Assembly (NCBI RefSeq): GCF_000512735.1
Contig: NZ_CP007028.1
Location: forward strand, 372,001-436,000
Direction: 5' to 3'
From: Thermocrinis ruber
GTDB lineage: Bacteria; Aquificota; Aquificia; Aquificales; Aquificaceae
Length of the DNA stretch: 64,000 nt
In this document: piece by piece, positions 15,390 to 18,278 of the stretch
How the letters are laid out: every line of letters starts with the position of its first letter
Numbering within the stretch: the stretch's first letter is position 1
Position numbers and translations under genes: made by a program
Notes under the pieces: generated by a model
Told to the model about the DNA's origin: nothing
Seen by the model: the letters and a program-made list of their open reading frames with translations, nothing else
Database searches by the model: none

Positions 15390-16282
15390 GGGTTCCCGCA
15401 AGCACCAGCAATCTGGGTGCAGGCTTTGACACCTTTGGGCTTGCCCTGAACCTATACAACTACTTTACCGCACAGCCTTGGGATAGATGGGAGTTTGAGA
15501 TAGTGGGAGAAGGGCAGGAACTTCCACAGAACGAAGAAAACCTCTTTGCCAGAGTATATTTAAAAGCCTGCGAGCTCTTTTCCCAAAAGCCCATTCCTTT
15601 GAAGGTTAAGATGAAAAACCACATTCCCACCGCAAGGGGGCTGGGATCTTCCGCCACCGCCATCGTGTCTGCCATAAAGCTCTGGGAACACTTCTATCAA
15701 AGGACCTTAAGCTTGGAAGAGAGGTTAAGGATAGCCTTTGAGTTTGAGCCACATCCGGATAACCTACTGCCAGCCTTTCTTGGAGGCTTTCTAGTGTGTG
15801 CAGTGGGCGAAAGGGTCCATTATCAGAGGTTGGACTTTCCGGAGGAACTAAAGGTGGTGGTTTGCATCCCAGATTTTGAGCTTTCCACAAAGAAGGCACG
15901 GGAGGTATTAAGGCAGGAAGTTTCTTTGAAGGACGCAGTCTATAACATACAGAGGGCGAGCCTTTTGGTGGTAAGTCTTTGCAAAAGGGACTATCAAGGT
16001 CTGAGGGAAGCGGTAAAGGACAGGCTTCATCAACCCTACAGAAAGTCCCTAATTCCAAACTTTGATAAGGTTTTAGAAAGCGCATACTCGGAGGGTGCCC
16101 TTGCGGTCTTTCTAAGTGGGGCTGGTCCCACCATAGCCAGCTTCTGCCTTGAGGGGGAGGACAAAGTAGGAAATGCCATGGTTTATGCCTTTCAAGAGGC
16201 GGGCATATCCGCAAAGTATTTATCCTTGAAGGTGGATAAAGAGGGGGCAATTTTTACCACAACTCCAGCTTCAGGGGGTTGA
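15365..16282 (+). CDS. thrB: Homoserine kinase
   Basis: A 305-residue GHMP-family kinase: VPASTSNLGAGFDTFGLAL at the N-terminus, the ATP-binding loop PTARGLGSSATAIVSA near residue 90, EPHPDNLLPAFLGG, and the C-terminal FLSGAGPTIA. It phosphorylates homoserine for threonine synthesis. The start lies inside the end of thyX (25 bases) and the end overlaps the convergent priA gene by 29 bases. Length and motifs are complete. Confidence 0.93.
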   Translation: MGQDYATLRVPASTSNLGAGFDTFGLALNLYNYFTAQPWDRWEFEIVGEGQELPQNEENLFARVYLKACELFSQKPIPLKVKMKNHIPTARGLGSSATAIVSAIKLWEHFYQRTLSLEERLRIAFEFEPHPDNLLPAFLGGFLVCAVGERVHYQRLDFPEELKVVVCIPDFELSTKKAREVLRQEVSLKDAVYNIQRASLLVVSLCKRDYQGLREAVKDRLHQPYRKSLIPNFDKVLESAYSEGALAVFLSGAGPTIASFCLEGEDKVGNAMVYAFQEAGISAKYLSLKVDKEGAIFTTTPASGG

Positions 16283-18257
16283 GGCTAAGAAGCTTTGGCA
16301 AAAATTCCCTCAAACGCTTTGGCTCCACCTTAAGAAAAACCTCCAGCAGATTGCCATACGTCCGGGTTTTTGCAAAGGATAGTTCCCTCAGGACCTTTTC
16401 TCTGTCTTTGGGAAAGACCGCCAAGATAAGCTTTGTGAAGGGAGGTAGGTTTTCTTCCCTTCTTTTTTCCAGCTCTTCCTCCAGAAAGTCATCCTTTAGG
16501 TACCTTTCCACCAGCTCCTCTTCCAAGAAGGTTTGCAGATAAAACTCCTGCTCCGCCATTGCCCATGCCCTGTGCACATACTTGTAAAACTCCTCCTCCG
16601 CGTTAAAGTTAGGAAGAGAAAGCAGGTTATCTCCATGAACCAAAAAGACCTTTTTATAGGTTCCCGAGAGAGAAGGCTTAGTGTCAAAGTGCAAACTTTC
16701 TTTTACAAGTCCGTATTTTTCCAGCTCTTCCACCGCCCTCTCCACACCAAAGCCTTGGGGAACCACAGGACTCTCGCAGTGGGGACAAGTGGGAGGACCA
16801 GACCATTTGCATCGGGTACAAAAAAGACTGTTTTGGCTTTTACTTAAAGTCAAAAAGGTGCCACAGTGGGGACATTCTGTCAGAAACTGACACCTGGGAC
16901 AGTATGCATAAGAGTAGCCCGTTTTTCTTATCAGAAGGAGGGAGTTGTCCTCTAACTTTGAAAGAAGCTCTTGGGAAAAAACTTCCTCCGGCTTTCTTTT
17001 TAGAATTTTCACACTGGCGGAGTAGCCAAGACTTTCCAACTGCCAAGCACCAATCTTCACCTTTTGGTAGGTATCCACTCCAAGGCTTGTGGTGTAGTAA
17101 AAAAACTGAGAGCCGTAATACCTGTAAAGGTGGAAAAGGTAGTTCCTAAGGTCTATTCCGTTGTATAACTTTGTATTTTGGTCTTCGAATAGTACAAAGG
17201 CAAAGGGCTCCTTAAAGGGCACCAAAAGTCCAAGCCTTGAGCTCAGGATCACCCTTCCTTCTTCCTGTGCCAGAAACCAGTTTTTCACAAACTGCCTTGG
17301 GCTGTCAAAGGAAGAGAGAGAAACCACCCGATCTCCAAAAAGGGGCTTTAGTTCTCTCATAAGGTAAAGAAGCGTAGAGTTTTGAAAACAAAATATGGGA
17401 AGGCTCTTGTTTTTACTTAGGGCGGACTCCACCAAAAGGACAAGGTGTTCTAAAAGCCTTGAAAGGCTTCCTACTACAAGCACTGGCTTTTGTATGCTTT
17501 TTATTAAGGATATGCTACTCTGCCTTAGCTGGCTTTTTGGACTAAAGGCAAAGTTCTGCATCAGCTCCTTTTCCACCTTGACTATACCCTTGGAAACCAA
17601 AAACTGCAGGTCTTTGGAGGAAAAACCTTCTTCTTTGAGCTCCTCCCTTGTGGCGTACAACCTCTCCCTGAGGTAGCTGAGCAGTCTTACCCTTTCTGCG
17701 TAGTTTTTGGTCTTTTTTAGCTTAGAAAGGGCAACATCAAAGGGAAGGTTAAGGCTAAAAAGCTCCATCTCCACATTTACCGCAGACCAATCTTCCACCA
17801 CCTTCAAAAAGCCTTTTTCCAATAAAAGCCTCACAAACTGCCATCCAAACCTTTTCTTGGCTGTTTCTTCCTTTATCCTTTTGTTTTTTGCCACCCAATC
17901 TAAAAACCGTTTAGTCCTTTGGTCCAAGCCCACAAAGGAGGAAAGGGGGACCGTAAGAAATCTTTCTTTTTTCCAGTTCCACTCAGCGGGCAAAAGTTCC
18001 CATAACAACAGCCAAGGTATTAAGCCATAGAGCATGGCGGTGTCCTTTAGGGCTGAGAGGTTCTTTTCGGAGGTCAGAGGCACCTTGTCTGGAAATACTA
18101 CTTCCTTGACCTGTCCGTCATCAGAAAGACCCACCACAAGTCCAGTTTTTCCTTCCACCAGAACCCTAAAGCCTATAGGGGAGCCCTCGTAAGGAAAGTC
18201 CGCTTTTATCCTTTCAACCCGCCCTCCGGGGAGAGCAATTTTCAAGCTCAGTTCCAT
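16254..18257 (-). CDS. priA: PriA-like replication restart protein with eroded helicase motifs
   Basis: A 667-residue protein from the ATG at 18257; a TTG at 18278 is the alternative. The eight zinc-binding cysteines between the helicase lobes are intact (Cys453, 456, 462, 465, 480, 483, 491, 494: CPRC, CPHC, CTRC, CPHC). The C-terminal NLPPF and the N-terminal fork-binding region are also PriA-like. The ATPase is not: the Walker A GSGKT is replaced near residue 260 by VVGSLSRLLEHL, DEEH by FEDQ, and the AGRAGR arginine-finger motif is absent. It should therefore bind forks without unwinding, as reported for Deinococcus PriA. Confidence 0.82.
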   Translation of the reverse strand: MELSLKIALPGGRVERIKADFPYEGSPIGFRVLVEGKTGLVVGLSDDGQVKEVVFPDKVPLTSEKNLSALKDTAMLYGLIPWLLLWELLPAEWNWKKERFLTVPLSSFVGLDQRTKRFLDWVAKNKRIKEETAKKRFGWQFVRLLLEKGFLKVVEDWSAVNVEMELFSLNLPFDVALSKLKKTKNYAERVRLLSYLRERLYATREELKEEGFSSKDLQFLVSKGIVKVEKELMQNFAFSPKSQLRQSSISLIKSIQKPVLVVGSLSRLLEHLVLLVESALSKNKSLPIFCFQNSTLLYLMRELKPLFGDRVVSLSSFDSPRQFVKNWFLAQEEGRVILSSRLGLLVPFKEPFAFVLFEDQNTKLYNGIDLRNYLFHLYRYYGSQFFYYTTSLGVDTYQKVKIGAWQLESLGYSASVKILKRKPEEVFSQELLSKLEDNSLLLIRKTGYSYAYCPRCQFLTECPHCGTFLTLSKSQNSLFCTRCKWSGPPTCPHCESPVVPQGFGVERAVEELEKYGLVKESLHFDTKPSLSGTYKKVFLVHGDNLLSLPNFNAEEEFYKYVHRAWAMAEQEFYLQTFLEEELVERYLKDDFLEEELEKRREENLPPFTKLILAVFPKDREKVLRELSFAKTRTYGNLLEVFLKVEPKRLREFLPKLLSLNPLKLELW

Positions 18258-18278
18258 GTTTTTTATATTAAGGTTCAA

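Follow-up and report, generated by a model that had tools for sequence, protein, structure and literature searches.

PriA is near-universal, and the Aquificales protein described here bears on why cells keep its helicase activity, which is dispensable for replication restart in Escherichia coli. When E. coli PriA binds a fork its zinc region pivots, a pore is built around the lagging-strand ssDNA and the docking site for the next loader is exposed; PriA-PriB restart in vivo needs no ATPase, and DnaB loading in vitro still proceeds with PriA K230A (PMC10175261). PriA of Deinococcus radiodurans, which has no ATPase, nevertheless binds DnaB as well as ssDNA and forks (Lopper et al. 2015, PMC4504706), and the paper on this pseudohelicase names Deinococcus-Thermus only (PMC4504706). 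A 2005 survey had scored PriA as absent from both Aquifex aeolicus and D. radiodurans (PMC1193525), and the D. radiodurans protein was characterised later (PMC4504706). Within the full text of the open-access literature we found no published description of an Aquificales pseudohelicase PriA.

The window, that is, the whole stretch of 64,000 nucleotides that was analysed, lies in the complete genome of a Thermocrinis (Aquificota; 1,521,037 bases, 1.52 Mb), whose nearest named relatives are Thermocrinis sp. An open frame spans positions 16254-18278 on its minus strand, and both a TTG at 18278 and an ATG at 18257 are in frame; the ATG, which gives 667 aa, agrees with the start of similarity in relatives. 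The product is a genuine PriA homolog. NCBIfam TIGR00595 matches it at E=2.7e-20 with 72 bits, under the curated 230-bit cut-off, and it matches solved PriA structures by sequence at E=1.7e-10. A Pfam search found no PriA or helicase domain above cut-off in the ORF; homology extends over the core and the zinc region, though it falls under the curated cut-off. No second PriA was found in the Thermocrinis genome, where the other weak matches are RecG (TIGR00643, over cut-off) and UvrB, so that an active copy elsewhere can be set aside and the gene is the single-copy priA. Its features are as follows.

16254..18257, minus strand: priA ortholog, predicted to be helicase-dead, 667 aa from the ATG (ORF and homology).
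17964..18257, minus strand: 3' DNA-binding domain (3'BD) region, residues 1-98; core conserved, PFG pocket loop and K61 equivalent deleted, W83 replaced by D (alignment).
17550..17963, minus strand: winged-helix/linker region, residues 99-236 (alignment and AlphaFold2 secondary structure).
16929..17507, minus strand: helicase lobe 1 in degenerate form, residues 251-443; the model shows it folded, and purifying selection acts on it.
17442..17471, minus strand: site of the lost Walker A, GSLSRLLEHL replacing GVTGSGKTEV (alignment).
17178..17192, minus strand: site of the lost Walker B/DEEH box, LFEDQ (alignment).
16776..16901, minus strand: Cys-rich zinc region with four CxxC pairs, all eight cysteines present (alignment).
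16700..16701, minus strand: junction of a deletion of about 29 residues (E. coli numbering) ahead of motif V, followed closely by a smaller gap (alignment).
16257..16775, minus strand: helicase lobe 2, reduced, followed by a shortened C-terminal domain (together residues 495-667); ELxxRRxxxLPPF remains, GRAGR does not.

Motifs I, II, III, V and VI, which mark an active SF2 PriA helicase, are all lacking. In the alignment with E. coli PriA, the Walker A stretch GVTGSGKTEV falls opposite VGSLSRLLEH, motif II (VIVIDEEHD) opposite FVLFEDQNT, motif III (LGSATPA) opposite YTTSLG and motif VI (QVAGRAGR) opposite HRAWAMAEQ, and motif V is deleted together with the stretch preceding it. Intact PriAs conserve 24 motif columns, and the Thermocrinis protein agrees with them at only 4, whereas it has all 8 zinc cysteines; an acidic pair, ED, remains as a motif II-like trace. 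The first-pass annotation of this DNA had reported Walker A, the DEEH box, a SATPS-like motif and AGRAGR as missing or unrecognisable; the alignment bears this out and adds motif V. True Walker residues elsewhere in the sequence, which that annotation had named as the result that would speak against it, were sought and not found: the P-loop pattern [AG]xxxxGK[ST] is absent from the whole Thermocrinis PriA. Two chance [AG]xxxxGKS strings occur in other Aquificaceae, off the Walker A position. We infer from the sequence that the Thermocrinis protein has lost its helicase motor and has no ATPase.

The zinc region is preserved. Counted from the ATG, cysteines 453, 456, 462, 465, 480, 483, 491 and 494 correspond one-to-one to E. 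coli C436-C479, so that all eight zinc-binding cysteines of the CRR that characterise the PriA family are present, as had been read from the sequence alone. The same claim for the terminal PriA landmarks holds in part: the 3'BD core (G29, D68, P101) and the C-terminal ELxxRRxxxLPPF are kept, but the protein lacks the PFG loop, the equivalents of F16, D17 and K61 and, in the C-terminus, P679, R688 and the DP motif at the very end. At the 3'-OH pocket, E. coli F16, D17, G37 and K61 are represented by I, K, a deletion and a deletion. This pocket is not a strict mark of the family, and since D17 varies even in motif-bearing PriAs its loss alone is weak evidence. In place of E. coli W83, which we map to the SSB-tail pocket, 45 of 46 Aquificaceae have D or E; we take W83 to be the pocket tryptophan by the numbering of the Klebsiella structure, from which a shift of one fits all five residues. 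The SSB of the Thermocrinis genome keeps an acidic DDELPF tip. Because the pocket loop and the SSB-tail tryptophan, both known fork-targeting parts, are changed in Aquificaceae, fork binding may differ from that of E. coli.

Several lines of evidence indicate that the gene is maintained. PriA is found in all 88 high-quality genomes, 82 of them matched by the Thermocrinis protein and the other six, which carry PriA-like frames of 652-698 aa, through TIGR00595; frames of about 610-740 aa are intact in nearly all relatives. The dN/dS ratio of Thermocrinis priA against three relatives of 95-97% identity is 0.073-0.089, with 0.083-0.092 among those three, and that of the degenerate lobe 1 is 0.04-0.15 among these close relatives. 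The first-pass statement that the frame is intact and the gene retained rather than decaying therefore stands. An AlphaFold2 model built on a 60-member alignment (pLDDT 86.5, pTM 0.80) has one disordered linker, residues 237-250, and otherwise the PriA fold and domain order; each of its top nine PDB matches is a PriA structure (best E=5e-29, TM 0.61). Given this confident fold, the motor lobes are predicted to be kept as folded scaffolds. The alignment, the sharing of the loss across families, the purifying selection and the modelled fold together support a PriA that has lost its motor and has been retained.

To place this loss we aligned with E. coli PriA 75 orthologs of families f1-f4, the Thermocrinis one included, and 12 of f5; eight more outgroup PriAs were added later, making nine in all. 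We take f2 to be Hydrogenothermaceae-like and f5 Desulfurobacteriaceae-like, and we take G001 to be Aquifex aeolicus, G029 Hydrogenobacter thermophilus, G079 Persephonella marina and G122 a Desulfurobacterium. Motifs I, II, III, V and VI are absent in 75 of 75 f1-f4 orthologs (one record is N-masked in its second half), none of the five E. coli motifs, including GTQMLAKGH of motif V, being recognisable. Whether all Aquificaceae share the loss had been raised at the outset; they do in every Aquificaceae PriA read, and it is common to all three Aquificales families sampled and to one genome of a neighbouring order. Over the Walker A of E. coli, identity averages 0.02-0.14 for f1-f4, 0.84 for f5 and 0.97 for the outgroups. 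At the position of the Walker lysine Aquificaceae have L, V, A, I or T, and R is found in 23 of 23 f2 and four of five f3 sequences; f1 and f3 proteins lack the segment before motif V. At the eight zinc positions no f1-f4 protein departs from cysteine except at the sixth (E. coli C466), which is replaced in four of 46 Aquificaceae. One of these four is G001 (L034), which reads CPRVKK there, and change at the second zinc site may be under way in parts of this family.

The 12 f5 proteins keep near-normal motifs (GVTGSGK, DEEQ or DEEH, SATPS, GTQ..KGHNFP and GRAGR). In every one of them (for example, L069 2500-4857, L073 and L074) the Mg-binding threonine of Walker A is a methionine, giving GSGKM, whereas GKT is found in all nine outgroup PriAs; DEEQ replaces DEEH in 11 of the 12, and the glutamine before GRAGR is usually changed. 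The f5 enzymes, too, may therefore be weakened.

In a maximum-likelihood tree f1, f2, f3 and f5 each occupy one side of a branch, with f5 outside, and f4, a single very long branch, groups with f1-f3 (support 97). Six groups require five label changes, which is the minimum, and the gene tree thus tracks the families. Since it follows the taxonomy, the simplest history is one ancient loss of the motor on the Aquificales stem, followed by vertical inheritance and possibly shared with f4; the share of f4 is less certain because of its long branch and the potential for convergent motif loss. A separate observation concerns G039 (f1 g7), which has a full priA of its own, 37% identical to the Thermocrinis gene, and in addition, at L110 2394-2984 (G039:C1:1338905-1339282), a fragment of 126 codons from the 5' end of a Thermocrinis-type priA (87% identical). 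The fragment sits between alaS and a type I restriction-modification hsdM-like gene, and probably came in with the restriction system.

The genomes also hold candidate partners. IstB/DnaC-type AAA+ matches occur in 77 of 77 genomes, a count that includes DnaA-like frames, and the Thermocrinis genome encodes a 221-aa DnaC/DnaI-like protein. DciA and PriC were considered as partners and set aside: DciA was found in none of 65 genomes of the phylum, and PriC was not found in the Thermocrinis genome. No gene neighbourhood is conserved between families that would give a clue to function, the neighbours differing and pointing to no pathway. In the f5 genus g26, priA is followed immediately by a DnaC-like gene in three genomes (the gap, measured in one of them, is about 60 bp, with both genes on the same strand), which supports a PriA-DnaC pathway in Aquificota. 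Among helicases, the Thermocrinis genome has a PcrA/UvrD-like gene and RecG, and UvrD/PcrA-like genes are present in 72 of 77 genomes. In the other five (G052, G018, G024, G058 and G060), Aquificaceae with a completeness of at least 99%, nothing matched the UvrD-helicase family, so that a UvrD-type helper cannot be a general requirement or an obligate compensation; this suggests that PcrA/UvrD/Rep helicases were lost in some lineages.

Given that E. coli restart proceeds without the PriA ATPase and that D. radiodurans PriA binds forks and DnaB without one, Aquificales PriA is most likely an ATP-free platform. We consider it probable that the motor was lost on the Aquificales stem, that the fold was kept and that the protein passes DnaB/DnaC on to forks that have stalled. 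The data show the homology, the missing motifs, the predicted fold, the selection and the phylogenetic distribution, along with DnaC-like loaders and the absence of DciA from the phylum and of PriC from the Thermocrinis genome; from these we infer that ATPase is lacking, that forks are bound and that DnaB/DnaC is recruited. Abandoned replication forks would be bound without the use of ATP, the 3'BD core, winged helix, dead lobes and zinc region forming a fork-shaped platform that also binds lagging-strand ssDNA. This platform would then recruit the DnaC-like loader with DnaB, and the replisome would be reloaded. If the lagging-strand duplex needs clearing, the job would fall to another enzyme such as the PcrA/UvrD-like protein or RecG. 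The first-pass annotation had likewise proposed a loader or platform at stalled forks, with a different helicase to open the DNA.

Other readings can be set against this one. The very low PriA profile scores might suggest a decaying relic, or motif loss through a sequencing or frame artefact, but this is hardly conceivable: frames are intact at about 610-740 aa in nearly all relatives, dN/dS is below 0.1 and genomes sequenced independently share these losses. Frameshift or decay is thus ruled out. It is highly improbable that the protein is instead a divergent helicase that binds or hydrolyses ATP through an unrecognised site: the lobes keep their folds, lobe 1 is under strong selection and the ED pair remains, but there is no GK[ST] P-loop anywhere, the Walker lysine is replaced by L, V, A, I or T in Aquificaceae and by R in 23 of 23 f2 proteins, motif V is deleted and the arginines of motif VI are lost. 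Acquisition of the dead form from Deinococcus-Thermus or Actinobacteria seems very unlikely. Pseudohelicase PriAs are published for the former (PMC4504706), and a smaller, very divergent PriA was noted in the latter (PMC1193525). Against this, in a tree without Deinococcus or actinobacterial sequences, degenerate and motif-bearing Aquificota PriAs form one group relative to nine outgroups (support 97) with congruence at family level, and PRK14873 profiles score below PRK05580/TIGR00595. In the same tree a motif-bearing family sits within Aquificota, and the loss in Aquificales is therefore likely to be independent of that in Deinococcus.

The losses reach beyond the motor to the PFG loop, the K61 and W83 equivalents and the C-terminal DP, and neighbouring genes vary between families without indicating a pathway; both would fit a PriA repurposed away from fork restart, for example to helicase loading at the origin or to a structural repair role. 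We regard this as unlikely, since the conserved set (zinc sites, GxG, ELxxRR, PPF) is PriA's own and the gene is kept in all high-quality genomes, as expected for a core restart factor. More tentatively, and as a possibility that we doubt, the platform may have been re-engineered into a minimal ATP-independent scaffold dedicated to recruiting a distinctive Aquificales DnaC loader, with the fork-targeting sites (3'-end pocket loop and SSB-tail tryptophan) shed; this state would have been reached independently of Deinococcus, and the P-loop may already have been weakened in an ancestor (the sister family having GKM for GKT, and Hydrogenothermaceae-like PriAs R for K). We favor the fork-binding platform: Aquificales PriA probably provides a docking site and does not itself unwind DNA.

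G001, which we take to be Aquifex aeolicus, has a PriA (L034, G001:C1:1239040-1241037; open frame 684 aa), to which a Pfam search at E 0.001 matched no family. Together with profile scores far under the cut-offs, this would explain the absence call of the 2005 survey, and the record that Aquifex lacks PriA is corrected insofar as this identity holds. A whole order without the motor and with the rest of the protein under strong selection is a natural experiment that splits the loader role of PriA from its helicase role. Crystal structures exist for A. aeolicus DnaB and DnaC, with which a motor-free, heat-stable restart system could be reconstituted.

Among known systems, E. coli and Klebsiella PriA (3'BD-WH-HD1-HD2-CRR-CTD; PDB 4nl4, 8fak) share with the Thermocrinis protein the fold, the domain order, the four CxxC zinc pairs, GxG, ELxxRR and PP, whereas the latter lacks the helicase motifs, W83 and F16/D17/G37/K61, has a shorter CTD and is encoded in a genome where no PriC was found. 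The Desulfurobacteriaceae-like f5 proteins are orthologous and the nearest motif-bearing relatives, with motifs kept and the Walker threonine replaced by methionine in 12 of 12. The resemblance to the Deinococcus pseudo-helicase proposed in the first-pass annotation is borne out, catalytic residues being lost and the gene retained under selection: both proteins have no usable Walker A/B, are kept across a whole lineage and are proposed to bind forks independently of ATP and to contact DnaB. In D. radiodurans, however, the changes described concern motifs I and II, where the Walker K is R, whereas the Thermocrinis protein has lost every motif together with the segment before motif V, and its 3'BD pocket loop and CTD are reduced. 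The loss inside Aquificota appears to be separate, since a sister family keeps the motifs, and the ATPase measurements are those made on Deinococcus PriA. The PriA pseudohelicase is a kind already known, of which the Aquificales protein is a further-reduced variant fixed across an order.
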